From the NCBI GenBank assembly GCA_037576215.1, contig JBANDB010000005.1, forward strand, positions 1,550,001-1,614,000: a stretch of 64,000 bases of DNA. Direction: 5' to 3'. This document shows, one piece after another, positions 18,259-48,493 of this stretch (its first letter is position 1; each line of letters opens with the position of its first letter). A model generated the notes under the pieces. It was not told the origin of the DNA and searched no databases. It worked only from the letters and a program-made list of their open reading frames with translations. The translations under genes and the position numbers were made by a program. Origin of the DNA: Armillaria gallica (taxonomy: Eukaryota > Basidiomycota > Agaricomycetes > Agaricales > Physalacriaceae).

Positions 18259-18267
18259 GTGTGGACA
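18259..18267. repeat. 9-bp target-site duplication, left copy
   Basis: GTGTGGACA directly precedes the left terminal inverted repeat. The identical 9-mer directly follows the right one at 48,485-48,493. Confidence 0.85.
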
Positions 18268-18310
18268 GGGCACGTAGAATTTTGCGAGCGACCCTTGCGA
18301 GCTTGCGTTC
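18268..18310 (+). repeat. left terminal inverted repeat
   Basis: Begins GGGCACGTAGAATTTTGCG. Mismatches to the right end are three bases in positions 5-8 and one at about position 25. Confidence 0.85.
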
Positions 18311-18366
18311 CCTTGCGAGCCTCGATTTGCATTTGCGTTTGCCAGTGTGACATCATTTGCGAGCGT
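18280..18366 (+). repeat. subterminal TTGCGAGC repeats, outer left cluster
   Basis: Four TTGCGAGC copies plus TTGCGTT variants lie within about 90 bp of the left end. Inverted copies occur at the right end. Such arrays commonly bind the transposase of the element. Confidence 0.75.
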
Positions 18367-18439
18367 GACATGGTCGAGTCCAGTTCAAGTCTGCCGACTC
18401 AGCTTGACTATCCAGATGTTCGAAAGTGTTTCAGAAACG

Positions 18440-20110
18440 TCAACTGTGCGTTGTAGATTACGATCCTTGTCGATTCCTCAATGAATGTGAACACGGCAAT
18501 ACTTAGGTACAGCCACGATCGTGAGTAATATTTTTTTTCACCTCTCACTATGCTGAAATTTCTACTTCTTCTGCGCCGAAAACAAGTCTTCGTTCTGATT
18601 TATTGACCATACCATCGCAAATAAACGAAGATACGTGTTCCTACCTTTCTTCTCTCGTTGATATATCCTCAAGCGCAAAGGTATTGTCCAATCCAAGGTA
18701 AGTCAGCCCTCCCTTTGGCCTTATCCCAACTCATCATTCCCTTCCTGTAGATTCACACCCTCATATCCTGCCTTTGCAAGGAATAGTCTTAGAGAAACTG
18801 GGATTTCGTAGTATATAAGCTACGATATTTCGTACTTAGTATCCATGTCGTGTTTGCCAGATGCAAACCATTTTGCTACTCACTTTGTTTGAGTTCAGCC
18901 CGATTCTAATAATAACATGCCATTCACAAGAACGCAGCAGCACGAAAGGACCTCGCCACTGTCTTCGAGACGCAAGCAACGAGAAACCACCAAGGGGGTC
19001 CGAATATGAAAAAAAAAGACAGTGGGTCGATTAAATATTTTCGTGCATCAGCGCTGGACCTACCTACCTCCACGTGACCTATATGATGTCATTCTGCCTA
19101 ATATAGGTCTATCTTCGCACTTTTGGCTCATTTTCCGTGCAAAAGTACCTGCATAGTAAGTATTCCAATGTATTGAACACAATTTGCATCCTATTGGACT
19201 CGTACTTCAAAATTAGTTCAATAAGTTGTCAATAAGGCATATGACATCATCACAATGCAGTATGCATCAATGCCGAAGAGTGTTGATGAAGATGTTTGTA
19301 ACACCAACTATCATATTCTCAGAGGTAAGTAGAATGTATTGTGGTATATATTGCATCATGATTCATTCAAAATATTCCTCAATAACTTGTTTTTAGACCC
19401 TAATAGGAGGAGCCAACTTTTTTTTTTCAGGCATGCCGGCCCAACCTACCTACCTACCTGGTGTGCCGGGCCGACGTCCCGGTACCCCCTTGGAAACCAC
19501 TCTGTCCCAATACCCCATTACAAAACAGTGCGAGCAATCCTCGTCACCATCAAGGAAACCAAAGCAACGAGAGACCAGACTGTTGCAACGCACCATTAAG
19601 AACAGCATGGCAGCAGGAGAGGATCTCGTCACTATTGAGTTGAAAGCAGCCAGTATTTCGAGGTTGAGGTTGAGGTGGTGACGAAACAATTGTTGGTATT
19701 GGGCGCGTCTCGGTATCAAGTCAGTTACATGCCGCACTTCTGACAGTGACGGTTGTTTCAAGCCTGGTATGGTGCTCACTGTCTATCCTCTTTATGGACG
19801 TCCTTTGGAAACTCGACTTGAAGAACTATAAGATGAAGTGGATACCGCAGTACCTTCTGTTCCACTGGCTGACCATAGTCATTGCAAATGATTCGGACCT
19901 CGTAGTCTCGTAGACTGCCAGTAGATTCTATAAAAGGATGTCAGTATGGTTTTATGGAGGAAATACAAGTCCATGAGCCAACCTTGAGTAATACCATGGC
20001 TAAATAAGTGCACAGATAACTAAGACAAGATTGTGATGGGTAGATAAAGTAGTGATGCAGGAGTTAAACTTGATTTAAACGAGTGTCAAATTGGTGTCAA
20101 ACGTTAACGT
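18440..20110. other. gap between two subterminal repeat clusters, no gene
   Basis: About 1.7 kb with no supported gene. It includes CCTACCTACCT-type short tandem repeats near 19,445 and 19,050. It may be a later insertion separating the two clusters, but I found no terminal repeats to prove it. Confidence 0.35.
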
Positions 20111-20119
20111 GACAGACCT

Positions 20120-20275
20120 GTCACACTTGCGTTCATTTGCGAGCTTGGTTAAACGCTTGCGAGCAATACTAGAACGCTTGTGAGCAATGCTACAACGCTT
20201 GCGAGCCATGTTAGAACACTTGCGAGCCTTGCATTAGCTTGATCGGTGCGTGCATTCATATGATTAGACTTGCGT
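20120..20275 (+). repeat. subterminal TTGCGAGC repeats, inner left cluster
   Basis: Four TTGCGAGC copies and one TTGTGAGC, spaced about 21-24 bp (near 20,131, 20,155, 20,176, 20,197 and 20,220), within repeats of the form AACGCTTGCGAGCAATNCTAG. Same orientation as the outer left cluster. Confidence 0.75.
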
Positions 20276-20300
20276 TCGGACTTTCACTGATATTGTGATT

Positions 20301-20328
20301 CCGAGTCCTATATATATAGGATACTCGG
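20301..20328. repeat. near-perfect palindrome with TA core
   Basis: CCGAG and CTCGG flank the 16-nt palindrome TCCTATATATATAGGA, with one bulged base. It sits just inside the inner repeat cluster and just before a tandem duplication. It could be a TATA-type promoter or a cruciform. Confidence 0.6.
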
Positions 20329-20380
20329 TTATTATGCGAGTTGAACATGCCGTGGGAAAATCTATTTGGGGTATCACGGA

Positions 20381-20552
20381 TTTTGCCGAACTGACCGTCT
20401 GAGGGTATCGTGGGAACTTTTTCTATTTGTTGTCGGCTTTGTCAGTCTTTCTTGGCCTTTTCGGTATTTTGCCGAATTGTTCGTTTGAGGATATCGTGGG
20501 AACTTTTTCTATTCGTTGTCGGTTTTGTCGGTCTTTCTTGGCCTTTCGGCTT
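20381..20552 (+). repeat. tandem duplication, period about 86 bp
   Basis: Two copies share TATCGTGGGAACTTTTTCTA, TTTTGCCGAA-type starts and TTTCTTGGCCTTT endings, with several substitutions. Copy 1 begins at about 20,381 and copy 2 at about 20,467. Confidence 0.7.
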
Positions 20553-20819
20553 TGTCGGGGGTCCCTAGGTTTTCCGTTTGTTCATATGACTGTTGTATGA
20601 TTGGTTTTTCTCTTTACATTTTTATTTTATTGCGACGTGACATCAGTACATGTCGTACGGCACGCACTCCCATGCAACTGCCCTGTCCCTTCCTTACATG
20701 GTGGACATGTTCTGTCCCTCCTCTATATCCTCCTCTCCTTGTCGCCTTTTTACTTCTCCTCGTGTCTCCTCTTCCTCCTCCTCGTATTCAAACCCGATCT
20801 TCCTCTTCAGCGTTGCCCC

Positions 20820-21100
20820 CAATGAGCCTGCTCCGACTTGTCTGTTGCCGTTTTTTCTGTCTCAACTCGCGTTCTGAAATGTCAAGGTTGGTCACGTACA
20901 TCCTGTGGTTACCCGTCATACTCACCATCATGTGTTCGCAGTTGACCATCGCTATTGCTCGCAGTATCATTTTCATCTTCACATTATCGCTCTTGCACTT
21001 CATGAATAAAATGGAAAATTGTGCTTCGACTATGTCGCCGGTCCTGAACGCGTGTGGCTTCGTCTTCATATATCTGGTGACCATTAGCATTTGCGACCAT
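20820..21100 (-). CDS. exon of an unrecognised cargo protein with GDIVEAQ motif (partial)
   Basis: A minus-strand frame encodes FRTGDIVEAQFSILF followed by KMKMILRAIAMVN. As I remember it, this GDIVE-hydrophobic-x-LRA/S-A pattern recurs in hypothetical proteins of transposon-rich agaricomycete regions. A GTGAGT donor follows the HMM codons and an acceptor TTTCAG lies about 50 nt on, leaving a very short last exon. Upstream exons were not found. The opposite strand carries a longer but low-complexity hydrophobic frame that I reject. Confidence 0.35.
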
Positions 21101-21320
21101 GTACATTTATCTTGCTCACCTTTTCTTCCCTCCGTCTACGATGCCTCTATAGTATCTCACTGTTACGATTTTTCGGTTTCTTCCTATCTTATCTTATCCG
21201 GCACCTCGGCACCTACCCAGCACCTCGGCACCACGGCCTCTCAGCATCCAACCCCAACGATCAATCCCCAAGACTTCCCGTGAAGCCGCAGACCATCGTA
21301 TTTTTAGATTCCACATATCA

Positions 21321-21328
21321 TATATAAG
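21321..21328 (+). promoter_or_regulatory. TATA box
   Basis: TATATAAG lies about 18-25 nt before the ATG at 21,346 of the next predicted gene. Confidence 0.4.
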
Positions 21329-21345
21329 TAGCACAGCTCTCAGCC

Positions 21346-22068
21346 ATGTACTCTAGCTTCGAGCTAAGTTTATACATCCTGGACTTTTCTCTTATCGCTT
21401 GCCGAGAGATTAACGTTATCCAACGCTCCACTGTGACAATCAACGCTATCGTGGGTGACTGTCCAAACGCGAGACAGCCCATGACTGCTTGTATTGTTAT
21501 TCCTGAGCCCGGACATAACACTCACCACATTCTCTTCAGTGTGCACCATGCTATTTCCTGCCAACCGTGCCAGTACACCTTTTGGGTCCACGTTGTTGTC
21601 GAAGGGTATGCCTGTCTCTCGCTCAGTTTTGCTTCTGCTCCTGACATATCAGTTGGACAGATCCAGCATGTCGTAACCTTGTACCTGGTTCGGGGTCCAT
21701 TCGAGCAGTTGACCTTGATGGAATTCCCGTTCCCCTGTATGTTGGATCTCCTTCAGTGTGCTTATGGTGTCATCGAAGGTTGAGCTGTTGAACCCTGTGA
21801 TCGTAATGGACTGACTAAGGAACCTCAGTTTTTCTCACATTCCGCTGGAATGGTGTGTGAGCGCAGCTTAGCAACATGGGTGTCAACTCACGGTGTCTCT
21901 CTCTCAATAGGTGGCAGGTTCATGTGCACGATCACACCCATCACAGTGAATACCATCTCCTCCTTCTCTCCTGACTTGTTGTCTTGTTTCACGAGTCGCC
22001 AGGACTGTTCTTCATCATTCGATTTTACCTCAACACCTTCAAGCACGGTCATCTCCTTCATATGACAT
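21346..22068 (+). CDS. unrecognised cargo gene (4 or more exons)
   Basis: Exon 1 starts MYSSFELSLYILDFSLIA and runs to ..YTFWVHVVVE (about 21,608). A 44-nt intron (GTATGCC..ATCAG) joins GQIQHVVTLYLVRGPFEQL, and a second (GTTGAGC..CTCAG) joins VFLTFRWNG. A third (GTGTGTG..AATAG) joins RFMCTITPITVN, all in consistent phase. The encoded pattern of alternating hydrophobic residues suggests a folded protein. No family recognised. The true 3' end may continue past 22,068 through another intron. Confidence 0.4.
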
Positions 22069-22249
22069 CAGTTTGTATCCCATGCTTCCCAAATTTGTAC
22101 TCACCTTGAATAATCTTGTTAGATGCAACAAGTCCTTCGACGCTCTCTCTGCTGCCAGACTTTCTACCATGTGTCCTGTTTCGTATGTGAGTTTGTCATT
22201 ACTCTTGAACATATCAATTACTTACTCGCTTCTTTAACGTCGTAGTATC

Positions 22250-23490
22250 GGTCCATATCTGCACTTTTGCTGGCTGCTTGGTGGTTCCCCTTTGTGAGGG
22301 TGTTGTTTGATCTTGCTGGTTGTTGTTGTTGGTCTGTTAATATGTATTGCAATAACGCCTGTTGTTCCCTTGTCATGCGTGATTGGCCTACTTACTCCCT
22401 TTCGCCTTGTTGGTGTTTGAGCGCGCGCGCTTGGCCTGCTATTGTGATCATGCTGCTGCCTTGCGCCGTACTTTGGTCCGAAACTATCTGCATTCGTCGT
22501 ATGGGCTGCAGCAGTTTCATGCCCCGTGATAACTTGGTGTCTGCATTTCATTGCTGTTTTTCCTTTGTGGGATTCGTTTCGTCTGTGACAGTGACTTCTT
22601 CACTGTGTGCTTGGGGGTATCTCCTCGATTGTTCTCCAGTTCGTTTGGCACTTTGTGGGTCCTTCATGATTGCCTTCTGTTGCGGTTGACGCCTGTCTGA
22701 TGTCTTCCCTTCTCCTTTCCTTTATTATTGTTGGAATTGTTATTACTGTGTTTGATTCCGTTGATGCCCTTCTATTTATCTCGTCGCCTGTGGGGCTGAT
22801 AGATTTCCGTGTCCGTGAACTTTGCTGTTGATATTCGTTATTGCTGTTCTGTCATAGATCGTGTCTGATGTCTCTGTCCCTTTTATTTTATTTTATTTGT
22901 TTTTTTTGCATACATTGATTTGTGTTACAGCTTCTGTGGATCGTGTTGTGAACATTCCTGCTTGACATGATTCATCTTCGCCATCGTGCATCGTCTCGTG
23001 TTTCTGTTGCTATGAAAATTATATATGTCCCATCAGGTTTGTGTGGATTCCTTGTGTTGATCGCAATGATCCTCATATGATTTCATTCATTCTATTTACA
23101 TGCTTGCTCTTCTGTTCTTCTCTATCCTTATCTGCCCTCAGTCCCTCCTCCCTCCCTTTCTTTTTTTCTTCCTGTTCCCTAGTTTCAAATGTGTTCACGT
23201 CCTTCCATTCAACTTTTCCTTATGCGGAGTTCATTATCTCAAACCTTATTTCTGTACAGTTGCGACTTTCTTCATATAAACCTCGGTTCCCAGTTTACCT
23301 CTCTTTTCGTCCACTTTTCACTCGAACCCTTCTCCGTGTTCATTGTCTTCTCTGTGTTCATTTTGCTCTTTTCATTATCGTCATGTCTGCATCTAACCAC
23401 CCTGCTCTACCTGTCGTCGCATAAGTTCACATTGTGTGTGTATTCATCCCTTGCATATGGCTGATCTGTATACGTATATTTAATGCAGAC
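22250..23490. other. no resolved gene inside the large element
   Basis: Strongly T-rich on the plus strand, with several hydrophobic frames of low-complexity character. An ATG at 23,382 (MSASNHPALPVVA) may be the first exon of the next gene, but I could not match a splice phase. Confidence 0.35.
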
Positions 23491-23493
23491 CGG

Positions 23494-26400
23494 TCATTCA
23501 AAAGCATAAGCGCACTCATCGGGTTCGTTCAGGTGGGGATGTCTTGCCCGTAGCGCAGCTTCCTGTTGCCGATCCTTCCCTGTTGGCTGGTGAAATTGCT
23601 TCCCGACACCTTGAAACGTACGTAGGTTGCGCCTAGCCATGTCCTGTCTCATGCTGACCTTCTTGCAATTTTTATCCAGTCCCCCCGCTAAAAAACACAG
23701 TCGCGTTGGTAATCGTGCTCGCATTGCTAGCTCTGACAGTGTCCCTGTGTGCATCCCTTTTCATGTCTGCAATAGTACAATTTGTTGTGTTTGACTGTGT
23801 ATATGCCTCAGTGTGTCGTTGTCTCCAGCTCCTCCTGCGCCTGGTGGAGCGGTGTATCAGTGCCTGCCCGCTGTCACCGTATCGTCAGTCCTTGGCGTTC
23901 TCTTCTCGCTTGTACTCTAAATTTGACGTTGGGTGTTTTTAGGCATCCCACCGGGAAGCTTGCTCCTGCTCTTCACAGGCAGATTTCCTACAGAGAGCTC
24001 GCACCTTCGGATGTCGCTGCTGTCACTGCTTCAGTACCCAGTCCTCATACGGAGTGCGTTTCTTTGTTTGTTTTTCTGCACTATAAGCCTCATAGTCCCT
24101 GTGTAGACCTCTTGCAGCCCTGTGTGCCATCGGTTGGGCCACTAACGTCGTCAAGTTGGATGCGGATGATGCTTCCGATTCTGGAACCGGCTCTGATGCA
24201 AAGTATGTTGTGATCTTATAATCATTCCGATCTGACCTCAATGGTTGTTTAGAGGTCCTGCGAACCCTTACATCGATGACGAGGCTGAAAAAGGCTCTGA
24301 TGAGTATGTTACCTTTGTTATCGTCTTCTTATATCACATCTCTATGTTTGCTTGTTCTCTTCTTCAGGTGTTCTTCTCAATCAGGCGACAGCGCGGACAA
24401 ATCCGACACTGCCCCTGCTGTGTTCACTCAGGGCAGTGCGCTGTCTGCTACCTCGATGGCATCTGCCGTTGGTTCGTCGGTTCGCGCGTCCCCGTAAGCT
24501 GTTTGCAGCATCTTGTTGTCTTCATATTTTCATTTTTCATTTAGACGCTCTCGAGTCAAGACCGAGCGTGGACTCTATGTTGATTCCTTGTATGTGTCTT
24601 TGCCCCTTCCGCAATGATGCTCTTTGTGTAGCTAATCTGTTTTAATATTTACTCAGAATACAGCACGGGAGAGCGTCCGATCTCACTTCTGACGATGATG
24701 TACGTTCTGACCCTTCTGTTGCTTTGTAAGCTTTGCCCTGCCCTTCATGTTGTCTATGTTTCATTGCCTGTACCAGGTCTGCTGCTCGTGCTCCTCGTCG
24801 CACTCAACCTGTAGCGCAGTATGTGTTTGTCTCTATTGTTGCACTGACATGATTGTATCGACTTTTCTATTAGCGCTCACTCTAATGCCTCATCCGCCGT
24901 CCCCGAGACTTGTGCTGATGACCTGCCCAACCCGGTTTTCCTTGAAGATCTCGATGGACCTCCCATGCCTTCTCCTCGTAAGCATAAGGATAAGAAGGGT
25001 AAAACAGTCCCTAAAGTAAACACGCTCGAAGTTCACACCAATCTGGGTGCTGGATGCGGTGTCGGAACCCCTCTCCCTGTTAAGACGCTTGTTATGTTGC
25101 GTCTTTTCAAGGTTCCGTCTACAGCAAGTACAGCGGACACTGCTGCTCGTTCGTCCAATGCGCCCGTCCCTCCTTCGGAACGTTTGCCTGTCACTGTACC
25201 ACCAGGCCTTGGCGATTCTGTCCCACCTACCGTTGGTCCGTCGCATCCTCCATACTATTTTTGTCTGCCTGGGTTGACCTACTTTTCTTTTTGGTCTTTA
25301 GGTCGACCATCTCTGTCCAGTGCGATTGCTCTGGTGTTAAATGCATTTGTGGGGTTTGTAATGGTTTGTCTGTTTTGAGCCGTACTCGCGTGTTTACTTC
25401 TACCTTTTAAGGTCTCGTGACTATTCCTCTGAGGAAGAAGATGATGATCCAGATTCAGTTGCAAGGCCCGTTGAGTCCGATGTGGTTGCGACTAAGTTCG
25501 TTCCATACTTCTTGGTGTTGCAACTTCTCATTTTATGTCTTGTCGTTCAGCAGCGTCCCCGATAGTCAACTGGGCTCTGATCCTGACGATCCTGCTACCT
25601 GTGTCATGCTGGTCGAGATCCAGGAGGAACAGCTTAGGGCTTTTTATCTCACGTTATCTCATCTAGGGTATGTGCTGTCTTTGGTTGGTTCTGATTGTAT
25701 CTGATTATGTTCAGCGTGTTCCACGCACTGGTTGCTCTTAACCACATGGTTTCTTCCTTCGACCAGCCTCCTTATGTCACTATTGAGGATGTCTTGCCTT
25801 TTTTTAGTATGTATTCTCTACAGTGAGTTGCTCCTCTTTGGTGTCCTGCATCATCTGCTGATCGTGTCCATGCCTGCTCTTCTTCCTTCCCTTGATGTTT
25901 CTTTGCACCATCTGTATGCTAACTAAGATCTGTGCTTGCCTGGCTCAATTTCGTGGGGTATGGTCCTTACTGCACTCTTTCCACTATGCCCCGTGACATC
26001 TTTTCACATGACGGCAAGAAAATGCTATACAACGGGTCCACCGCAGTTAGTATTGTTGTTGGCATCATCATCGACTGCAGCATCTTCAAGGTCGGTCAGG
26101 TAGGTGGATACAATGGCGCCACTTGCCCTCAGGGTGGTCACCCTTTGCATTCCATTTGGCTTCTACCCTTTATGCAGCCTTGGAGGCACGAGACCACTAT
26201 GATCGCTACCGTGTTTGATATACCTACAGCCGAAGCCCAGTCTGAGTCCATGACCAGTGACGGTGTCGATTTTTCTACACAATCGCCTTCCTCTACCCCT
26301 GGTGGCTCTAACCGTAACAAGTGTACATTTCATTTTTACACTGATTCTTATGTCCTGTGACTTTCAATCATTTATATTCTAACATTGCTGTCTTATCTGT

Positions 26401-26872
26401 GTCAGATCCTTCTCCGATTTTGCAGAAACAACCCGCCGTTAAGCCTGGTGGCGGCTCGTCCTCTCACGGCCAGTCTGGTTGGCCCCGATCTCCTTCCAAG
26501 CCAGCCGGTCTCACCTCCCATGCGCAGTACTATCACTGCTTAGGCTTTGATGACGAGGGTCAGTTCCTTTCGTGTTGACCTGCATTCACTGTCTTATCTG
26601 ATTCGTCTTGTTGCTTCTTTGCAGTTCCTGTCTTTGACGGTAGACATTCGAAAGGACATCACTTTTTGTTCTGGGAAGATTTCGACAATATACAGTCTCT
26701 GCCTAGGGTGACCAAGGATCTTGGGTGCTTCGCATTGGTTGCTGTCGCATATACTCCATCTGTTTGGTCTCTGAACAGTGTCCCCTGTGTCAACCTCAAC
26801 GTACAGTTTGCCGTGCTTCTAGGGCAGGCACCCAAGCCTCAGGCCCTTGTCGATGCTGGATATGGTTTATAG
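23494..26872 (+). CDS. unrecognised multi-exon cargo gene (Ser/Asp-rich N-terminus, folded C-terminus)
   Basis: A chain of about 15 short exons with GTATG/GTAAG donors can be read. The first ones are Ser/Pro/Asp-rich and basic (e.g. PPAKKHSRVGNRARIASS, then ALCAIGWATNVVKLDADDAS, RKHKDKKGKTVPK, RSRDYSSEEEDDDPDSVA), resembling a disordered nuclear protein. The later ones look folded (VLAWLNFVGYGPYCTLS, GGYNGATCPQGGHPLH, and a C-terminal HYHCLGFDDE then VPVFDGRHSKGHHFLFWEDF, ending near 26,872). I recall PVFDGR-type C-termini only from hypothetical mushroom proteins. Whether it is a transposase, a DNA-binding accessory or unrelated cargo cannot be told from sequence. Ends and some splice sites are approximate. 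Confidence 0.45.
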
Positions 26873-27660
26873 TGGCGCTTCTATCAAAGCCCTCGCATCT
26901 AGACGGAGTATATTGGACTGTTGTTATCGATGTAGTATATGTCTGATTTGTGTTGCGCATATATATTGTCTGCCGAAGCCGGCATGTTGCCTTCTCGTAC
27001 CTTGTGCCATCCATCCCTGTACCATGCCAATGCGATTCACGTGGCACAAGTGATTTCTTCGATCTGCTTCCACTCTTCCTGGCTTTCTCTCTTCACTTAC
27101 ACTACATTGGTTAAGGAGCTTTGGTCAGTCATATCTGCTTGTGTTCTTTCTTTCTGGCATCGATTCACATGCAGTCAGCTTAGTCTGACCTCCCTGTCTA
27201 TACGGGTGCTCTCCTCTTCACACTATCGTTCTGATACACCTCGCTCATCCTCGTAGTGTCATATAGGCATATCTCTGTCTGATGTTAAGCCTATGCTCCT
27301 TTTTCTTTCTTTCAGAACCTTCACCATGTCTTGTTACCTTTCTCCGGTGTCATTGATCCTTTGTGTGCACCAGTGATTTCCGGCACTGACCCAATGCCAC
27401 ACAGTTCTGTATCCATGCAATCTCCTCTGTTTGGGTTGATTGATTCTCTATGCCTCAGGCTTCGCACCTTTGTGCTCCGTGTATATAACATTCTACCTGG
27501 AACGGCCACATTGTTACATGTCCATCTCTCTTCGCAGCTCCGTCTTATCTGTGTCCTCTTACCACCCTCATTCCATGGAACCATTCCACCCTGCTGAGCT
27601 CCTGGATGGCCCCATCAGTGACTGCACATGTTATGTCGTGCTTTTTGCTGACGAGCATCC
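26873..27660. other. unresolved; possible further exons
   Basis: An 88-codon plus frame (27,331-27,597) with leucine-rich content may be an exon of the preceding gene or of an F-box relative. No clear splice chain was seen. Confidence 0.3.
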
Positions 27661-27663
27661 ATA

Positions 27664-29501: not shown

Positions 29502-30462
29502 TTACCTTTATATGTTTTCTCTTACAATCCTGACCCTGCGCGCGGTGTGTTTCAATATGCTTGTTCCAGTCCAGATTATCCGGTTATATTTGTCATCTGG
29601 TTCTGATCACCTTGCTCTCTCTTCTCAGGTGCCAAATGATAAACTAAGAAGGCAGGTACCGTGGCTATAACAACTGCTTGTCCATTCAAGTGCTGTCATT
29701 ACAGATATTGCTATCGACATGGATCTTGACAACATGTTGTTCCATGATGTTGTCAAAGAGTCCCTTATGGAAGCTACTCCCAGTAACATTGGGGATTCAG
29801 CATCTGTCTTCTTCCTGGTGTGCCTGTTGATCTGTTTGTTATTGTTGCCTTCCGTCGTTCCCATCGATCCACTCGCGCTCTCATTCTATCCTCGAGCCAT
29901 TCAAAACCTATTCTTCGTTAAAGTTGATGACGATGATCACTTTATGTGTTCTTCCATGCACGCTTCTTGATTGGTGTTGCGTCAGTGAGACTCCACTCTC
30001 CCAGGTTGCCGATCTTCCACTCTTTGCGAACGTTTTTGTTGTATTTATCTTCTTATACTTCGTGCTCGTCATCTGCTTCTGACTATTCAGTTCAGTCAGT
30101 GCACGTACCGTCGCTCATGAAATGCTTCACGCACAGATCCCCCATTGAATCTGCGCTCATTGTTGTATCGTCTCTTCCTTAATTTCTACACTTGACATCC
30201 AGCCTCATGTCTTTATCTTTCTTAGTGGCAGATCGCGTTTCGAATGGTTGCGTGTATGCAGCGGACTTACTCTCACTTGTTCCGACTTTTGTGTATCTTT
30301 TTTTTTGTGCTACTGTTTCACTTTAATGCACGCTGTTCGTTGACCCTTTTATCTGCTCGTACCCCCTTCTCCCACCTACTTTGTTTCTACCTACGGGATA
30401 TCTGCACTGCCTTCCCTTGTCCTCGTCATTGCTTCGTTCTTGCTCCTTTTAAGCTTGCTGCT
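29502..30462. other. intergenic inside the large element
   Basis: T-rich, with hydrophobic low-complexity frames. No supported gene. Confidence 0.35.
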
Positions 30463-32407: not shown

Positions 32408-32594
32408 ATGTCCTATCTGTTGCCATGTCTTTACTACCTTCCATATCGTTGTATTCCAGGATGCAGTCCATTGCTGTATGTTGATTAGTCCGCTCCTTGC
32501 ATATGGTGGCATCATGTCCGCTGCTGATAACTAGGGCGTCCCTGTCACATTATCTCTTTTGCATTATCCCTTACAATATCTCTCATATACCCCA

Positions 32595-32725
32595 TATACG
32601 TTGTCCATGATCTCAACTACAAACATGCTTTGTAGGAGGTGGGCTTTTTTGTTCTTTGTTTTTTGTTTTGGGTATAGACTGCATTAAGTACCATGGTGAC
32701 ACATTAATGATACTTTTCGATATAT
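32595..32725 (+). pseudogene. duplicated fragment of the 3' end of F-box copy A
   Basis: TTGTCCATGATCTCAACTAC and later AGTACCATGGTGACA repeat the 3' end of copy A (about 29,378-29,500), with a T/G-rich replacement in the middle. Too short to encode anything. Confidence 0.6.
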
Positions 32726-36440: not shown

Positions 36441-39400
36441 CTCGCATCGGGGGTGGTCATGGTGCTCATCTGTTTGTGTCGAGTGAAGTCCTCTCGCCCT
36501 ATATATCTGGCAATGATGTCGAACACCAGCCCGTCGATCTCGCCCCCTCTGTGAAATATAGGTATCATGGGCATGTGCTGAAGTCCGCGGTCGACTTGTC
36601 TGACAATTCCCTCATTGCTGTCCACGTACCCATTGGTAAAATTGCATCTGGTATAATGTTCCATGAACTGCGTGCTCTCATTCTTAAACACGATACTGAT
36701 CTCACTTCTCGAAGCTCTAAACGTGTTATGCTAGACGCTCTGCAAACACATGAATGTCCTGCATGTGATACGCACATTACTCTATTCAAGACGGTGCCTA
36801 TCTTCGGTAACAACACTAAGTCTTCTAAGGCACGCACTACCCCTGTCGCAAGCACTGTTTCCCCTTTGTCGGAGTCTGTGTTCCCTCCCCCTGCACTAGA
36901 TAACACATGCGAGGCATCTATTGTACGGTCTTGCGCCGATGCTATGCAACCCTCTCGATTCAAAGAGGCCAGATGTACCATATGTGGACAGCTCAAGCCC
37001 TTTACTCAACTAAGTCCTGCATGTCACGTTGCTCGATTCTTTTCTATTCTAGAGAATGATACCTGTACCAGGAAAGAGCGAGCCTCTGATAATGATCCCG
37101 TTCAGTCTTTACCTGGTCCTGTAATTGATATGAAAACAGACCTGATCTGTCTACCGTGTAGAGCATCTGTCCGTAAGGGTGTAGTTCCTAAGCACATGCT
37201 CACTCATAATCTCTGGTTGGGGGATGTACCTGACGTACTTTCTTGACTGTCCTTCATGGAACGAATACTCGTTTCTCGTGTATGACACAACTGTTGTTTT
37301 GTACGTGTCGCTCTCTCTGCCCATCCGGATCTTGGCTCGAGGAAGATGATATCTCATGTTGTTGCATTCAAGTCTCCGGTCTCCAAGATCTATTCCGTAT
37401 TGCCTCCACCAAGGGACAAACTCGACGAGGTGCTGGCTGTTATATTTACCGGGCCATCCGCGCCCACCAAGGACGATATGAAGCGAACCCCCCTGCTAGT
37501 GCGTCACAAATACATTGTGGATGCACTGGGTTGGTTGTGACTCAACCATTGTGACTACGATGACGTCGAGGTCTCCATGGACAACCTTGCAATGTATGAA
37601 GATGGCAAGGCACCCGTCACGGTTGTGTATCAGGACCGGCAGAGTAATAAGGTACCAGCATCTTTGACAACGAAGAGGCAGACGGGACTACACATGGACC
37701 TTGTCCAGTTGTTGTGCATGGACTGGTCGGCGAGCGTCTCGACACCCTTCCCATCAAGACCCAGAAAGCGATGGCTACTCGTCATTTCAAGGCAAACCAT
37801 GGCGTTCTCGCTGTGGGGCATGCGGAGTCACCAGAATCCATATATAACAATCCAGCCTTATATCCATTGATGTTTCCATGGCTTTTCCCGTATGGATTCG
37901 GTGGGGTAGGTTCAACTGAACTATCAGACCAGGCTCACAAACGATGGCTCCTCATGTATCACAATAAGCGCTTTCAGGTTGACATCGGATTTCCTTTTGT
38001 TGCGTTCAGCCATGAGCAGATTCGGGCGAGTACGACAGGTGGGTTTCTGCTCGCATCCAAGGACAAATTCTTCGACATATCTGAAAGACTAATGCAAGTA
38101 GATGAGAGTGTTTTGGAGACCCTTTCCGATAGGATGAAAGCAGGAGAAACGGTTGTGCCCACTACGCCAGCAGAGAAGGATTGTTTTCAGTTGGTAAACG
38201 ATCTCGACCATGTTGCATACAAGGTACAAAGGTCACTCACCTCGAAGAAGTACATGTGTAATGAAGCATATTCTTTAATGGCTGCAGAAGGTGCACCCTC
38301 TTGGTATTTTACCATGGCACCTTCTGATCACAATCATCCTATTTGTGTATATTGGGCTGGTCACAATATCGAATTTGATCCCGTGCCTTTAAATGAACGG
38401 GAACGGGTTCATGCTGTAACCAGCAATCCAGTAGCGGCTGCACGGTTTTTCAACTTCATGGTAAATTTGTTCATCGTGCATGTGCTTCGACCCGGAGACG
38501 ATATTATTCCAGGCTTGTTCAGAAACACTGCAGCGTATTACGGGACTGTGGAACAGCAAGGACGGCTCACATTTCATATTCACATGATAATATGGCTGTA
38601 TAATTGCCTTAGTCCTCAGCAGGTGAAGGAAAGGCTACTCGCCAGAGACTCCGTCTTTCAGCAGGAACTCATCGCATACCTAGATAGCGTCCACAAGGGA
38701 GATTACTTTAGCGGTCCTCAGACTACTGTTACCGACATTCGCCATGCTGAGAAGCTGCAGCCTGGTTACCAAGAGCATACCGATGTGCTGCCCACCCCTC
38801 CTCCTTCTCATTGTGACGTGGATGGATGTGGTGATTGCGCGAAAGGCGACACGACTGATACCTGGTGGGCATACTTCAAACACGTAGTAGATGTCATCGT
38901 GAACAAATGTAACGTCCACTCGTGTCATAGCAATACTTGGGCCGATGGAACCCTGAAAGGGAATGTGAATGCTAAGGGTTGTAAGGACAACAAATGGAAA
39001 TGATGTAAAGCCAGGTTTCCTCGTAAGATCGTCAAAGAGAGCAACATAGACGACAGTGGTCATGTTAACCTCAAGAAGTCCGAAGAGTGGATAAATACCT
39101 TTGCGCCTCTTATTAGTTATCTCTTTCATTGTAACACGGATGTAACCTCCCTGCGGTCGGGAACTGCGATCAAAGCGGTGCTGATCTACGTAACAGACTA
39201 TATCACCAAACCCGGACTGAAGACCCATGCCATCTTTGACTGTATAAGATCAATATTTCAATGGAGTCGCGAGCGTCCAGACGACCCCCAGAAGACGCGC
39301 AAGGATCGTGCCAGGAAATTAATGACACAGATGGTGAATGTATTGGGTGCTAAAACCGAACTGGGTTCTCCAATGATATGCACATATTTGCTCAGTTTGC

Positions 39401-41966
39401 CGGACCACTATACCAATAAAGTTTTTGCGACATTCTACTGGAAATCTTTCGTTGCCGAGGCCAGAAACTACTGGAAACCGGACGGGGAGTCTCCTGATGA
39501 AGTCAAAATAACATTGAAAAAGGGTAGGGGCACCATTTTGGGTGTTTCTCCCGTTGAAGACTATATACATCGTCCAACCGAACTGCAAGATATGGCTCTA
39601 TACGACTGGATCAGCCTGTGCGAGCGTGTATCTAATAAATCGAAGGCCAGTCGCTCCGGGCAAGATCTGCAAGACGATCCCATTGAAGTCGACGACGTAT
39701 GTAGAATACTGGAAGAACGCGGCGACATGTGCGACAAAGAACCGGACGTCGCACCCGTCGACGATGAAACTGAATCTCTGGATGGCTTCATTGTACCATC
39801 TGACAGTGAGGATACCCATCTGGCTGGCGAATATGACCCCCTCGTGCCGGACGCTGCTCCCTGCGACGGTGGGCGCAGAGTGGAGTACATTGGTCATGAA
39901 ACAGACTCTGGAGACGACGTATGCAATGACAGTCGCCAGCCAAAGGTGAAGAGAAAGAGGTTTCGTCGGCTCAAATTCTCAAATGAGCACCCTCTGTATG
40001 GGTCTCATCATGTACGCGTGCGGGGACCCAATGACCGGGTTGTTCCTAATTTTGTTGGTGGAATGCTACCAAGAAAAGATAGGGGGGACCGAGAATACTA
40101 TTGCAGTGCGATGCTCGTGCTGTTTCGACCATGGAAGACTGGTTCTGAACTGAAGGCCGATCAAGAGAGTACTTGGGAATCCGCTTTCCAAGCTCACAAT
40201 TTTACGGAGCCTCAGCTGCGGATAATGGCGAACTTTAATCTACGTTACGAGTGTCTGGATGCTAGAGACGATTACAGGGCTGAACTAATGCAGGAGATCG
40301 AGGGAGAAATCCCTGCTTGGATGGATGGTAACACTTACGCCGATATTGCAGCTGATGGGAAACAACAAATGGTGCTCGAGGATATGACCGAGTACGGCGT
40401 CGACCCGGATCTCCTGAACAATAAAGCTATGCACGGACGACGACACCAGGCGAGAGAACGACAGGCTGCTGTAATACAGAACCTGATGGGACCTGCCGGC
40501 TGTAAATGGGCCGCTCCTGACCCGTGTCTCGCTACTGTATCGCATGCCTCCCCTACTTCACCCTTATCGGACAAAAGTCCGTCAGATTGGAAAAGCGAAG
40601 TAGATCATGCGAAAGCAGCTCTACTAGAGTCTCGGCGAACTCAGGATGTGGAAGTTCAGCATAGCAAATTTACAAAGACTAAGCACTACGTAAATCAGGT
40701 TGAGATTATTCGAAAGCATCATTTGGTACGTACTCAGCATGACAATACAGAAGAAGAGTTTGTATCCAGAGTAGAAACCGATTATTGTCTCAATACGGAA
40801 CAATGCCGTGCATTTAGGATCGTGACGCAGCACGCCTCCACTCCCGGTGCGGATCAACTGAAAATGTATGTGGGTGGCATGGGTGGAACGGGAAAGACTC
40901 GTGTACTTAACGCGCTGACTGCTTACTTCAAAGAACAGGGCGAGAGCAAACGACTAGTCATAGTCGCACCCACCGGCACTGCCGCGGCTTTGGTAAAGGG
41001 TTCTACCTACCATTTCATGTTCGGCATAAATGAGTGTCACGGAGAGGCTATATCCAAAAAAGCATTAGCTGAATTCAAAGAGAGGATGGACGGCATGGAT
41101 TACATTTTCGTCGACGAGGTGTCTATGCTGTCTTGCGTCGACATGTATCGTATAAGTGCCCGAATGGCTATGTGCACCAATCGGCCAGAGCTCCCTTTTG
41201 GTGGTATGAACCTAATATTTGCTGGCGACTTCGCACAGTTACCGCCAGCAATCGGATCCGAGCGTGCATCCTTGTATGGGCCTAACGAAGGTTTGTTCGC
41301 TTCGAGCAAAAAGGCACAGGAAATGGCAATGGGAAAAGCAATCTGGCACCAAGTCACGAGCGTTGTAATTTTACGCCAGAATATGAGACAACGCTCCCAG
41401 ACGGTCGAAGACGAGAAGCTCAGAACGGCGCTGGGTAACATGCGATACAAAAGCTGCACGAAGGCTGACCTGGCTTTCCTTAACAGCAGGGTGTCCGGCA
41501 GACCCAATGCCCCAAGGATCGCAGATAAAGACTTTCGAAACGTATCCATCATAACCGGCTTAAATGTACATAAGGACGAGTACAACAGAATCGCGTCCAC
41601 ACGATTCGCACAGGAGACCGGCCAGACCTTGACCACGTTCTACTCTGAGGATCAATTGTCTTCCTCTGAAACGACGGAACGTCTGGTACCCGGTAAAGGG
41701 AAGAAACTATTTGTTACAGAGATATCTGGGGCTCTGCAGGATTTATTATGGGCGGCGTCACCGTCGGAGAACGACAAGCACATACCCGCCACGCTGGCTA
41801 TTTGCGTCGGCATGCCTGTAATGATTCGAGTTAATTCAGCCACCGAATTGTGTATAACAAAAGGCCAGGAGGGTACAGTACATTCGTGGAAAGAAGCAGT
41901 TGGTTCGCATGGACAAAGGCTGCTGTCCGTCCTGTTTGTTAATCTTGTAAATCCTCCTACGGAAGT
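36440..41966 (+). pseudogene. Helitron Rep-helicase, 5' part (interrupted)
   Basis: Rolling-circle transposase. In order: an N-terminal region with Cys pairs (CPACDTHITLF near 36,760; CTICGQLKPF near 36,975); a DUF6570-like region (YSVLPPPRDKLDEVLAVIF, KRTPLLVRHKYIV, 37.3-37.6 kb); the Helitron_like_N Rep domain with HUH motif (FHIHMIIW, His codons 38,575-38,583) and paired tyrosines (YVTDYITKP, about 39,187); and a PIF1-type helicase with Walker A GMGGTGKT (40,877), Walker B FVDEVSML (41,110) and GDFAQLPP (41,224). In-frame TGA codons lie at 37,244, 37,283, 37,538 and 39,001. A frameshift near 37,655 moves the frame once. A hAT element is inserted after codon position 41,966. It is therefore dead as it stands. 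Confidence 0.85.
41959..41966. repeat. 8-bp target duplication of the hAT element, left
   Basis: ACGGAAGT, repeated at 46,453-46,460. Confidence 0.9.
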
Positions 41967-44900
41967 TAGTGCTCCAACCCTTTACTTTTCCTTTACGGGT
42001 CCAGGTAAAATAAAGGGAAAGGGTTTGTAAAACGTTTAGAAACCCTTTATAAACCCTTTAAAAGGGTTGATTCACGTGACATGCAAGCACAGCGGGAGAC
42101 AGCTCAAACAAGGCTCTAAGACGACTAGCCGCATCATATATGAATCAATGATGGATATTTTTGTTCTCATTTTATACTTGTATACATCTAAAACTAGTTA
42201 AAGAAGAAAAGACCATCCTTGATCCAAGCTTTCGTGAGCATAGCCGTCATTATGGTGTCAGCTTTTAGTGAGGAGCGAGTTTCGGTGCAGAGATGCCGCG
42301 ACTTCGAAAACAGACGCTCAACCGAAACACTAGTACCCGGGATTGCCAAAAAATCACGAGCCATCCTTGCAATAACAGGGAATCTTGATTCATTCCGCTG
42401 TATCAAGGGATCAATACTAGCATAGGACTTCAAATGACACAGTATTACTCACCTTCCACCAGGTAAGTGGATCATTCTCATCCCCTTGGTCAATGGTCTT
42501 GTATGCAATGTAGAAGCGATCACACTCGCTGGCTAGAACGGAAGCAGCCACAGGATCCATCTCGGAGTCTGATGGGACATCATTCATCATGACTTCATTG
42601 AGGAAATTTGACGTTGTTTTCCGAGTTGAAACTGATTTCTTCATCGATGCCTGATCTTCCTCGTTCGCCATATCTTTGTATTCTGTGTAGACAGTCTCAA
42701 ACAGGACCTTTGCACGTGTTGCACGGTCTGAATCATTCAGACGTCGGAACCAGCGAAGTCCAAGATGTGGATGAAGCACTAATGGGTAGACGAAGTCTTT
42801 AAGCACTGAAAATTGACGAGTTTCAAGGCACATACTGGTTGCTATGACATTATACTGATTGAATTTTGCTTTGAAATAGTACTTGTCGAGTTTCACCAAT
42901 GCCTGACGAGCGGCAGTTCGGATTTGCGGTAGTTGATTGAGATCTCCTTCTGTCGTTAACAGATGCCGGCTCATCATTTCGTACATTGGTAGGACCCATG
43001 GGAGTGTTGGAGTCGTCGATCGGGACATCTGTAAGGTAACTTGAGTGAAGACCTGCTCAGAAAAACATAGGATCAGGACAGATCATGAGAGAGTAGCATG
43101 AATGCACCGCACTTCAAGAACTTTACACAGCTTCTCGAGCATGCTCCATTGGGACATTGTGAGGTAAAGCGACTGGAGAACAGGACTCATAAGAACCCAA
43201 CAGTCAATTGCCTTTGTGCCGAGAGGGTTAGCCAACCATAAAGCTCAGAGGACACGAAGAAACAGACCTTTTGAAGCAGCAATGCACGCTTGATCATAGC
43301 ATGAGTATAATTCCAGCGTGTTATTATGTCCCGAATAGCCATCAGAAGGGCAATCTTGTGGCCTGATGGTGCGCGCTGATCCTTGTACACATCTTTAGCA
43401 ATCATTCGGAATTTGCGACGCCGCTGAGGTGAGGAGCAAATTTTTGTAACAATCAAGCGCAGCTAAAAACCATCGCAGTCAGACTGTAGGGTTGCATGCT
43501 ATTCCCGGAATGACCGACCTTCTTGACTGGACTCCAGGTGTCAACGTCATGAAGCAGCTGAGCTATGACATCGTCGTCGTCGTCGTCATATTCAATGTTA
43601 CCATCAGTTCGGGATGCCTCTTGCTGATCCATTTCTTCGTCGAGTTCTTGTTCGAAGGCTTTAAGACCCTCATCGTCATTCTCGTCGTAGTGGCTTGGAT
43701 ATTGCTTGTTTCCACTGAAGTAATCATTTTCGGCGGGATCTTCAGCTTCTTCTAAGCTGTTCATGATGACTTGGGTGACGAGGCTGACGACATGGTCGAG
43801 ACAGTGAATGTAAGCGTTATCGGGGACAAACCCAAGTCTATAATGTGTGAGCATAAGATTGCTGAGTGTTTCCGCAAAGACCTCGTTAACCGATGCATTG
43901 TCCATGGACACTGTTAAAAGCTTTTCAAGGACACCGAGCTGAGAGGTAGACTTTGCAAAAGCCATAGCAGCGTACACTCCTTCATGTTCTTTTTCTTCGA
44001 TGGGATGGAAGTCAATTACACGTTCAACCAAGCGCCAGTCTTCTGTGATCCAGTTGACAATGGTTCCGGTGAACGAGAACATCATAGATCTGGTGGTCCA
44101 AGTATCAGTGGAGGCGGCGATTTTCGATTTGACATTCTACAAGAAGAGTCAGCGCAAAGATCACATCAAAACATGAGCCATACCCGTATCTCGTTTTGAA
44201 CGTAGTCCCGCATGTCGGCATGGATGAGCTCAAGCTTTTTGCGAACAGTCGTATCGGATGGGAGCGAGAATTTTGACTTAATGTAGCGGAAGGTTCGGTC
44301 GGCGCCAGAGGATTCTGCAAAACAGAGTGGAAGATCCATCTCGAGTGCCCATGCAGTGATAACCTTATTGAAGCCTTCTTGGGTTGGGATATGCGTGGGA
44401 TTGAGCTCGCCATCACGCAAGAACTTCTCCATGATGGTATTGCTATTAAGTGATCCCGCCGGATTCTCGTCATCTTTGCTGGATGTGCTTGGTGCTGGCA
44501 TATCACGGTGAGCGTTCCGGACATGGGTGGACAAGTTACCCAGAAATGGCTTTTTAGGCTCATCTGCATCAAATTGAATGTTGTTGCCCTTCACAGTTCG
44601 TTTGACTGTTGTTCGACTATTCAGTATTAATATGTAAATGCATCCTCTTCCAGTATGAAGAACATAACCACGTACTGCGTACATCCTGGATGCCTACACT
44701 TGAAGGACCAGCGCATTTCCCCATTCATGATCACAGCTTTTGGCTCAGAGAAATGAATGCGGGATACACTCTTAGGGCCTCGAGCAGGTCGGTCTTTGTC
44801 ATCATCTGAATTATCGCTGATTTCGATGGCTTGTATACTTGGGGTTTGGCTTGAGCCAGGAGCACGTACATTTGCGGTTTTCTGTATAAGCATCAGATCG

Positions 44901-46452
44901 GATCCCGGAGGTGTAATTATGTTACTTGGCATACCTTAGACATGTGTATCTTCTTTGCCCCAGGTTTTGTCTTTCGGTATTTCCGGGACTTCTAACAGTA
45001 CAGATCAGTACAGTAGGTTCGATATACACGCAAGGTCTGACCTGTGCATGAACCGTATACATGGCCTTATCCTTCTGAGAGCCATCATCGCTACCATTCT
45101 CAGATCCAGAAACAAGGATTGTTCGCTTCCGTTTTGAGCCTGAAGGTACCCGGTCGTCATCTGGCTCAGAGAGCTCTTCTACTACTTCTAAGCCATCGTC
45201 TGCAAGTGAATATGCTCGAACAGGAGACTCCGAAGCATTTCGGCGGCGAAGTGTGTAAGTGGGGTCATTCTCGTCATCGCTACTAAATGCATCTGCATAA
45301 CAAGCATGATAAAGAATCTTCAAGCGGATGAGATAATAAGACATACCAGCATCAAAGAGTTTGAGGAGAGCATTACTTGCACCCTTTTTACCCTTCTTCC
45401 CCGGAGCAGCCCTCTGTTTTCTCTTCTCCTTTGTCTTCATTGAACCGTGTGTTGATTCTGGCAACTCCGAATCTAGTTCTACGTCGCTGTTGGGTGTATT
45501 GAGATCTTGGGTGATAGAATTCGAGCCAGACTGAGCAGCAGTACGCAAATCGGAAGTTGTATCTTGTTCATGTGGCGTAGAGTCGTCGACGGTGGATGAA
45601 TGCTCAGGTCTTCGTTCGGTTGATGTTGATGGGCCAGCTGCTGCGAGGTATCGAGAGACGTTTCCAGAGACTGGCTGAAAACCAGTCTTTTGCTTGCTTT
45701 TCAAGTCTTGAATATACGTTGATCTATCGCAAATAAAATAGTCAATAAGCTATGAAGAAATCTACAATTAAAAACTCACACAATATAGACAACCTCATTA
45801 ACAAGCCGTAACAATTTTGGCTCGACAATGTCAAGGGGCATCTGCGACCAGGGCACAGTCTGCAGGTACAAGACAACTGAGTCTAATCCGTATTGACCAC
45901 GTCGAATATTTGGAAGTCGGCCATTCTGATCACGTAGATGTTCAGCATAGAGGATGTCAAACCTTCGGTTGAAGGTTGAAAATGGGTCCTCCGACGCAAC
46001 GTGAGTCATAACATGGTAAATATTATCCTCGATCTTAGCCTCGGGTATAACTTGAGGAGGAAGCCGTGGACAGATCGTTGCGAGCTTCTGCACTAGTGCG
46101 CGCACTGAGGTAGGTGTGGGGGACATGATAGACAAGACCCCAGAAATTCACGCCAATTAAATAGTGATGAGTGCATGTATTCACCACAAAGTATGTGGCG
46201 CAAGTTGATACAAAGGCCATTGTGGAGAACTGCGCACGCGGTGGGCAGAGGGCAGCGTAGAATCAAGGAAATCCTATGAGTGGCTCAATGAACAAAGTCG
46301 TCGTAGACTGCCTAATTAGTAATTGGGATGTCTATTGTTTATCCTTTGTTTACCCTTTGTTTACCCTTTCCCCTCCGACCTAAATCTAAAGGTAAAATAA
46401 ACGGTTTAAAACCCTTTATAAACCCTTTAAAAGGGAAACGGTTGGAGCACTA
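41967..46452 (-). mobile_element. hAT transposon, 4,486 bp, complete
   Basis: Ends are TAGTGCTCCAACC and its exact inverse GGTTGGAGCACTA, flanked by the 8-bp duplication ACGGAAGT, as expected for hAT. Both ends carry subterminal CCCTTTATAAACCCTTTAAA strings. Removing the element plus one duplication copy rejoins the Rep-helicase frame (..PPTE-V-QLPGLPLN..) without a shift. The element therefore inserted into the helicase after or while that frame was intact. Confidence 0.92.
42194..46126 (-). CDS. hAT family transposase (about 11 exons)
   Basis: Cut-and-paste transposase acting in the nucleus on its own ends. The ATG is at 46,124-46,126. Exons join in phase: MSPTPTSVRALVQKL.. (to 45,780); STYIQDLKSKQ..LFDA; DAFSSDDENDP..TVHAQ; KSRKYRKTKPG..HMSK; KTANVRAPGSS..; then a BED-type finger split by an intron (CRHPGC .. 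HVRNAH). Next come the body with STDTWTTRSMMF and SMDNASVNEVF, an acidic stretch near 43,570, LRLIVTKICSS.., AIDCWVLMSP.., and the dimerisation region ending FPVIARMARDFLAIPGTSVS and ERLFSKSR. Roughly 1,150-1,200 aa. I see no stop or frameshift in this chain, so the element may be active or recently so. Confidence 0.85.
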
Positions 46453-46460
46453 ACGGAAGT
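46453..46460. repeat. 8-bp target duplication of the hAT element, right
   Basis: ACGGAAGT, identical to 41,959-41,966. Confidence 0.9.
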
Positions 46461-48071
46461 GCAGCTACCGGGATTGCCACTGAATGTCGTGCCGATCATG
46501 CGCACATCCGTAACCGTAAACTGCAGCTTACCAGATGACACCACAATCAAAATTAGCCGCAATCAGGTTGAGGTCCTGCATAACTTCGCAATGACAGACT
46601 ACAGTTCGCAGGGCAAAACAAGGCCGTTCAACCCAGTCGACCTGAACAACTGTAGATCTCATCAGTCATACTACACTGCGCTCTCTAGGACGGCGACGGC
46701 GGCCGGTACACTGATCCTTCCATCTTTGAACGGTGCAAGATCGTCTCCTATCGATGCCAGGAAGATACAAGGAGGTTGTAGTGGTTTCTTGAGGCAGGAA
46801 TTCAGAGAGCTGGAGATACTCGACGATATAACGACGCAGCTGTACAATGGGTCTCTACCTGTTACGGTGCAGGGAGATACCCGATACGGCCTCATAGAAT
46901 CTTTCCGTGCGCATCGGGGCGACGATTATGCTCCACCTTTGATGGATCGCGTGCTGACATGGTCTACTGTGGATCTGTTCAATATAAGAGATGAGACCCT
47001 GGAGGTCGGTGAATGGGAGAAAGTATTCCTCACTCATAAGCCGAATGTACGCACCATTCTACTGTCTACACAACCGTCACTGCCGTCTAGCCTACTACCT
47101 TCCAATGTCAGGGGTACGCGGATCTTCACTCCCATGAAGCCACCGAGAAGCGGAAGGGTAGGGTGTCTGACACGTTTGACCTTAAGCACGAGACGATAGA
47201 CAAGAGGGTCATCGTGGCCAAGGATAGGCAAGGTAGCGCTACCGCTGTAGCTGTAACCACTTCACCAGTGCCATACAGACCGTCCGGCTGCAGATGGTCG
47301 AATAACAGTTGCGCATACGATGCGTCTGTTTTTGTTATATACAATGTATGGCGCGTCGCAAGTCCTGACTTCAAGCTGGCGATGGCTGAATGTGGCGATG
47401 CTTGTGTTGCCATCTTGACGTCTTCCTTTGAAAGGTTCGTGAGTGGACAATATACACTAGAGGAAGTGAGAGATTACCTCAGGCGGCATTTGAATAGAGA
47501 GTACCCGAACTCGTTCGGATTCAGCTCAATGACAAGCGCAGAGGCAGTCTTGATGAAATGGTGCATGGGGCATGGCGATTTTGCCACCGTATCTTATGTA
47601 TGCAATAACGGCCACGAAGAGCCACAGCATGGCAAGCTGTGCTGCGTTATCGAGCCCGGGGGAGTGGGTTGGGAGACGCTGCAGCAGTTTATCAACAGAT
47701 GTAAATCGAGACCAATTTGTCGTACTGTCACATCTTGCACGGTATGCGGTTCCAATGTCGCAGAGTGTCACAGGTACCAGTATGCCCCACCGTTACTGGG
47801 TGTGGCTGCCGCTTTCACAGATGCACCGCCCGACCCTGAGATACGCTTGGACGTTAAAGGCTGCATCACAGTGTACCGTATAGTGGGGATTGTGTATTAC
47901 GGGACTAATCATTTCACCACGCGTTTCATCGATCTCGAGAATAACGTGTGGTTCAACGATGGGATGATACATGGCAGAAATGCCATCATGGAAGGTACAC
48001 TCGATAAGGTCGATCTCATGCGTGACGTGACGGGTAAGTCCCATGATCACTTTATCTACAGACGGACATGA
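46459..48071 (+). pseudogene. Helitron Rep-helicase, 3' part, with cysteine-protease-like C-terminus
   Basis: The frame resumes directly after the hAT duplication (VQLPGLPLNVVPI) and contains the late helicase motif MTDYSSQGKT and YTALSRTA (to about 46,710). A single-base frameshift near 47,110-47,160 moves to a second frame (..DTFDLKHETIDKR) that runs to 48,071. That C-terminal domain (about 250 aa) has RWSNNSCAYDASVFVIYNVW, a CTVCGSN..C cluster and YGTNHFTTRFIDLENNVWF followed by NDG. The Cys, His and Asn/Asp arrangement is that of a papain-like fold such as a ubiquitin-specific protease. Such domains are known fused to fungal and other Helitron helicases. The exact family is inferred. Confidence 0.75.
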
Positions 48072-48228
48072 ACAAAATGCAAGAGGTTGGTGTAATATTA
48101 TAAACTAATTTTTTTTTTTAAAAACCAGAAAAAAATACATAGGACTCGGACCTGCCGCGCGGATGCGTTGGCCCTCTCCGACTAGTGGTAGTATGCTGTC
48201 AACAGACTACTGGACCATCCCTGGGAAC
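48072..48228. other. candidate Helitron 3' end region
   Basis: A CCGCGCGG palindrome near 48,155 is followed about 20 nt later by CTAG (48,182-48,185) and then T, compatible with a Helitron 3' end (hairpin, CTRR, insertion before T). The hairpin is minimal, so this is tentative. Confidence 0.25.
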
Positions 48229-48484
48229 CTCGCAAGTAGGTAATTTACTGTCTATCAAGGCTTAAACTATTTACTTGATATTATTATCTATCCGGAACAG
48301 TATTTAAACCTCGTAAGGGTCGAGGAAGTTTTGAGGTAGTCTGGTCGGTAAATTTAGCTCGCATTCATAAGTAATAACTCGCATTGATGAGATCATACAC
48401 GCATTGATAGGAATGCAAGTGATCACACGTAAAACGCAAATGAACGCAAGCTCGCAAGGATCGCTCGCAAAATTCTCCTGGCCC
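48229..48484 (-). repeat. right subterminal repeats and terminal inverted repeat
   Basis: Inverted copies of the left motif (GCTCGCAA at about 48,450 and 48,463, CCTCGCAA at 48,229, CTCGCATT variants near 48,358 and 48,379) precede the terminal repeat 48,442-48,484, which ends ATTCTCCTGGCCC. Confidence 0.8.
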
Positions 48485-48493
48485 GTGTGGACA
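48485..48493. repeat. 9-bp target-site duplication, right copy
   Basis: GTGTGGACA, identical to 18,259-18,267. Confidence 0.85.

Follow-up and report, generated by a model that had tools for sequence, protein, structure and literature searches.

The window analyzed here, a 64,000-nucleotide stretch of the Armillaria gallica genome (C5:1550001-1614000; the 86.0-Mb assembly has 28 contigs, to which the C-numbers refer), contains two terminal inverted repeats (TIRs) about 30 kb apart, each abutting a copy of the same 9-bp sequence. Between them lie three F-box genes, a further conserved open reading frame and a gene for RepHel, the Helitron protein that combines an HUH endonuclease with a PIF1-type helicase, together with a solo-LTR-like insertion and a hAT-type element (Table 1). 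All three F-box genes are located upstream of RepHel. Homology of the first extends to 27817, so its true start lies upstream of the modelled exons.

Table 1. Features of the Armillaria gallica locus (window positions)
Feature	Position	Strand	Basis and details
Left 9-bp target duplication, GTGTGGACA	18259-18267		sequence read
TIR element, left part (TIR 18268-18317)	18268-20299	+	relatives aligned; non-autonomous, ~2.33 kb
Helitron2-like insertion, 27,887 bp	20300-48186	+	seven TIR relatives without it; ends compared with other copies
Helitron 5' end, TCCGAGTCCTAT..., and hairpin	20300-20328	+	12-bp asymmetric inverted repeat with 48139-48150
Solo-LTR-like insertion	21161-21520		same stretch elsewhere in pairs ~8 kb apart
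Conserved open frame	25923-26357	+	codon-periodic differences from the C3 copy, p 1e-7
F-box gene 1	27817-29501	+	F-box 3.6e-8; modelled exons 27916-28555, 28636-29010, 29056-29501 (486 aa)
F-box gene 2	30693-32407	+	F-box 2.7e-5, 24.3 bits against a cut-off of 20.5; exons partly modelled
F-box gene 3	33651-35449	+	F-box 1.2e-5, 25.5 bits against a cut-off of 20.5; exons partly modelled
RepHel gene, HUH endonuclease and PIF1 helicase	37286-48071	+	Helitron_like_N 7.7e-27, PIF1 4.2e-24
Nested hAT-type element, 4,486 bp, TIR TAGTGCTCCAACCC	41967-46452	-	target duplication ACGGAAGT at 41959-41966 and 46453-46460
RepHel C-terminal domain, predicted USP fold	47091-48068	+	structure model, residues 59-326
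Helitron 3' end: inner inverted repeat ATAGGACTCGGA, then ...CTAG before T	48139-48186	+	comparison of copies
TIR element, right part (TIR 48435-48484)	48187-48484	+	inverted repeats, relatives aligned
Right 9-bp target duplication, GTGTGGACA	48485-48493		sequence read

Of the 11 inverted pairs listed in the window, the two TIRs (50 nt, 88% complementary) form the longest. In the 86-Mb genome, 61 sequences match their left end, and many of these are accompanied by a right end; the right end itself is matched many more times. Among 20 copies fetched, the target duplication is perfect (9/9) in 12, matches at 8/9 in one and is poorer in seven; scripted copy lengths range from 988 to 3151 bp, and in two copies (L055 and L064) the right end is not the usual one. 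This recurrence in pairs, with perfect duplications in 12/20 copies, argues against a chance agreement of repeats and duplication. The first-pass annotation had recognized the matched ends and the perfect duplication, both of which were borne out, and had suggested a search for further copies of the ends, which are indeed present. The TIR elements form a genuine family whose members are small and lack long open frames. The longest stop-free stretch among the 20 fetched copies is 207 aa, so the earlier remark that no transposase was recognizable for these ends still stands, and the ~2.33-kb element of the window (18268-20299 plus 48187-48484) is apparently non-coding. It combines long TIRs with a 9-bp target duplication, as Mutator-like elements do. 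The Mutator-like or KDZ-like class proposed earlier gained no support: a genome-wide search for the MULE domain returned three matches, none close to a listed TIR copy, which gives no support for a MULE transposase as the driver of the element, and neither this search nor the 20 copies yielded a transposase for the family. Two pairs of TIR-family ends, at C19:1274433-1289354 and C15:507235-517650, are spaced ~15 and ~10 kb apart and perhaps mark further copies with nested insertions.

Searching with the joined outer flanks of the TIR element gave 34 genome matches, namely its own two flanks and 32 sites of 39-46 bp that cross the join; the genome yielded no allelic empty site. Just 6-13 bases of these 32 sites, six of which were inspected, lie to the left of the duplication, so the support on that side is modest. 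Window 18252-18267 and 48494-48517 form a dispersed repeat that hosts the TIR element and whose 39-46 bp core occurs at the 32 other places.

The internal boundary emerged from shorter members of the TIR family. Seven relatives (L048-L054) align without a break across the junction of window positions 20299 and 48187, which sets the size of the TIR element at ~2.33 kb. A search with window 47000-48600 retrieved two groups of matches with a common boundary at 48186, where the RepHel tails stop; the right ends of TIR elements start at 48186-48189. The intervening insertion starts with TCCGAGTCCTAT directly after a T (T before TC) and finishes with CTAG before a T, its border being uncertain by one T; subtracting the LTR-like and hAT-type insertions nested in it leaves ~23.0 kb. 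Its 5' end is identical in 13/13 copies examined, always preceded by T, and its 3' end is common to 6/6 copies examined, always followed by T, with one reading CTAC; this comparison covers the matches that have a locus, one further 5' match and several 3' matches having none. Ends shared among copies, a target-site duplication of at most one base, and a RepHel composed of an HUH Rep domain and a PIF1-type helicase are general Helitron features, all of which the insertion shows. A 12-bp perfect inverted pair (20300-20311 and 48139-48150) has the arrangement of the asymmetric repeat of Helitron2-like elements, with the 3' copy 30-40 bp inside the end. Helitron2-like elements have a hairpin at each end. 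Here the 5' hairpin was better than expected from shuffled sequence (z -3.7, 2/200 shuffles equally good); the 3' hairpin was not significant in the shuffle test (z -0.4). Judged by these terminal features, the 27.9-kb insertion is Helitron2-like. Two other classes were considered and rejected: Helitron1 inserts between A and T, and 13/13 of the 5' ends examined follow T; Helentrons carry an endonuclease fused to RepHel, and the scanned RepHel frames contained no such Pfam match. No RNA family in the window reached its gathering threshold.

Two lesions break the RepHel gene of the window, an in-frame stop codon (39001-39003) and the inserted hAT-type element, so this Helitron copy is not autonomous now. 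Alignment with other RepHels showed the HUH motif to be conserved, and a RepHel profile retrieved Helraiser (7lcc, E 4.5e-13). For the C-terminal domain, a model from 15 sequences (pLDDT 77.6) predicts a ubiquitin-specific-protease (USP) fold; a model from a single sequence was unusable (pLDDT 31). Such a domain may strip ubiquitin or SUMO from proteins. Both nested insertions postdate the Helitron, as relatives lack each of them: the solo-LTR-like insertion is absent from the C10, C13 and C3 Helitron copies, and the hAT-type element from the C3 copy and L035. The latter (41967-46452) has the 8-bp target duplication and short TIRs of hAT elements; five minus-strand frames were scanned, with no hAT Pfam match and one sub-threshold match to DUF769.

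Other copies of the Helitron clarify which parts travel together. A full-length copy (C3:5660514 to ~5703767) is colinear with the window cargo at 77-84%, nested insertions aside, and its RepHel match sits in a 1877-aa open frame. When its outer flanks are joined, six paralogous empty sites match them across the join (69-71%). The C10 copy follows window 20300-31438 at ~94-96% and then has a second 5' end and a single 3' end, the window sequence beyond 31438 not being resumed. Two paralogous sites span its joined outer flanks (83% and 80%) and two further matches do not; the continuity of the former indicates that this chimera inserted as one piece, in agreement with the two-5'-end model prediction in the part of PMC5148889 drawn on here. 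Fainter colinear traces occur at C2:5.74-5.77 Mb and C3:2.96-3.00 Mb, and C13:588807-591287 holds a small Helitron relative that has no RepHel. The sequence flanking this C13 copy on its 3' side resembles, by eye, window 50452-50911, where a 35-nt inverted repeat (50452-50486 and 50877-50911, 390 nt between) perhaps delimits a small TIR element.

Between the window and the C3 copy, differences follow codon position in RepHel (p 4e-30 and 3e-45), in the USP frame (1e-9) and in 7/7 tested F-box exon stretches (p 0.006 to 9e-7), which were picked after inspecting similarity and dN/dS profiles; no codon periodicity was detected in 3/3 spacers (p 0.89, 0.45 and 0.76). The conserved frame at 25923-26357 behaves like the exons (Table 1), and a Pfam scan returned no match for it. 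Compared with the C10 copy, the main F-box frames have dN/dS values of 0.39-0.85, close to the non-coding background, so no recent constraint on them is seen. The simple method used gives a background of ~0.4-0.6 in spacers and wrong frames, and the claim of selection therefore rests on codon position relative to spacers. The colinear copies and the empty sites, together with the codon periodicity, demonstrate that the F-box genes move with the Helitron and that, within its lineage, their exons evolved as coding sequence.

F-box-like sequence also occurs outside the Helitron. The F-box protein encoded at 48782-50008 shares 82-84% identity with A. ostoyae and A. borealis proteins along its entire length, and 89% with an A. 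nabsnona protein along 48% of it. Window 6596-12420 (minus strand) holds three tandem diverged copies of a gene, in ~2-kb steps, with F-box-like frames, and further such frames lie in 57704-63499, along with several direct duplications of 90-94% identity, 1-3.6 kb apart.

These observations bear on how the locus was assembled. The first-pass annotation had described the whole 30.2 kb as one DNA transposon with TIRs, a 9-bp duplication and cargo. The DNA transposon is there, at ~2.33 kb, and the cargo belongs to the Helitron. A single 30-kb TIR transposon with multigene cargo including RepHel would account for the matched ends and the perfect duplication; however, exactly 20300-48186 is missing from the seven relatives, and this segment has its own Helitron ends, which recur at loci lacking the TIR element; the single-transposon reading is therefore highly improbable. 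Equally improbable is an origin of the C3 and C10 copies by segmental duplication of host DNA instead of transposition: the shared stretch is large, as such duplications would predict, but similarity ends at the Helitron ends, the flanks are unlike those of the window, and paralogous sites run continuously across the joined flanks of both copies. We conclude with high confidence that the locus consists of nested insertions, with a giant Helitron2-like element carrying RepHel and F-box cargo inside a small TIR element. Matched outer ends and a perfect duplication are thus no proof of a single element between them.

Even with a genuine Helitron, the F-box genes could be host genes that came to lie near RepHel through insertion preference or recent repeated capture, as passengers without a role. 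F-box-like frames are common in the window outside the Helitron (by look; Pfam was run on those inside), and Helitrons are known to capture host sequence (PMC6431247, in the portion cited here). The genomic distribution of both genes weighs on this question. The RepHel search gave at least 66 matches (46/153 candidates scored); for the linkage count, 43 rows were merged by script into 38 loci. At 15 of the 27 loci with at least 44% identity (window included), an F-box match lies within 35 kb upstream on the same strand, and 14 of these 15 have at least two such matches, although the exons of one gene may count twice. None of the 27 has an F-box match downstream, and one has a match upstream on the opposite strand. 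Random placement produced a mean of 0.38 linked loci and a maximum of 4 (5,000 trials, two contig sizes guessed). Among 48 F-box matches used, 37 are linked to RepHel and 11 have no RepHel downstream, one of the latter inside the C10 Helitron. The absence of upstream F-box genes at 12/27 of the closer loci, and at 11/11 below 44% identity, would suit passengers at least as far as the 12 are concerned, but the fixed orientation at 15 loci, the colinear spacers, the codon periodicity of the exons and the empty sites, which enclose the C3 cargo and part of the C10 cargo, do not. Neither do the locus tags in A. ostoyae, where the best F-box 1 homologue (ARMOST_09167, 43%) and a RepHel homologue (ARMOST_09170, 69% over 59%) are three tags apart, each listed with a contig of 2,495,003 bases. 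We therefore consider mere passengers unlikely. Given the C3 and C10 empty sites, the codon-periodic exons and the 15/27 linked RepHel loci, the F-box genes in the Helitron are not a one-off capture. A search with the F-box 1 protein returned seven proteins, 7/7 from Armillaria or Desarmillaria. At C4:6988003-7015088, a match to the MULE domain separates an F-box array from the RepHel that belongs to it on the same strand; it may represent a nested insertion.

The nested arrangement most probably arose as follows. A non-autonomous ~2.33-kb TIR element inserted, creating the 9-bp duplication. The Helitron2-like element (~23 kb) later entered it at a T at 20299/48187, bringing the three F-box genes, the further conserved frame and RepHel, whose C-terminal domain has the predicted USP fold. 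The solo-LTR-like piece and the hAT-type element inserted into the Helitron afterwards, as the relatives lacking each of them show. By analogy with known Helitrons, movement would proceed by a rolling-circle mechanism in which RepHel nicks between T and TC, the strand is displaced up to the 3' end, and insertion takes place at a T.

Among the closest parallels is FoHeli/Helitron2 of Fusarium oxysporum. As described in the sections of PMC5148889 used here, it shares the TC start after T with the same TC/TTC ambiguity, the 5' hairpin, the asymmetric inverted repeat whose 3' copy stands 30-40 bp short of the end, the absence of an endonuclease, and chimeric elements in which two 5' ends go with one 3' end, comparable to the C10 copy. 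FoHeli differs in length (~6-11 kb) and insertion sites, and those sections do not mention F-box cargo. HELPO1 of Pleurotus ostreatus with its cap genes, according to the excerpted account in PMC4289320, is likewise an agaric Helitron with RepHel and 1-4 gene-like, Helitron-only passengers. It measures 1.5-13.7 kb and carries passengers of other kinds downstream of RepHel, with no F-box in that account, whereas the Armillaria element is ~23 kb long and its cargo lies upstream. A deubiquitinase-like cysteine-protease domain fused to RepHel has a counterpart in Helitrons bearing VTD or OTU domains (PMC9741609, in part); the VTD-bearing ones treated there come from vertebrates, insects, cnidarians and molluscs. 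Unlike those domains, the Armillaria domain, a putative protease, is predicted to have a USP fold. A review states, in the part consulted, that fungal Helitrons reach 14 kb and that full-length host genes in Helitrons are exceptionally rare (PMC6431247). Titles and abstract openings of the open-licence literature yielded no description of an F-box-bearing Helitron.

The locus belongs to a ~23-kb fungal Helitron family with three F-box genes and a predicted USP-fold domain, and there is evidence that these genes evolved as coding sequence inside the element. The F-box proteins would serve as adaptors of SCF ubiquitin ligases, and the cargo may act against host defence. It is possible, though doubtful, that this giant Armillaria lineage maintains a stable, co-evolved ubiquitin toolkit, in which three upstream F-box adaptors and the RepHel-fused USP-type protease would steer host defence proteins to degradation or shield the element's own transposase, and movement of the element would seed F-box genes genome-wide. 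The finding raises two testable questions: whether transposons turn the tools of ubiquitination on their host, and whether the spread of F-box genes in these mushrooms may have been aided by rolling-circle transposition.
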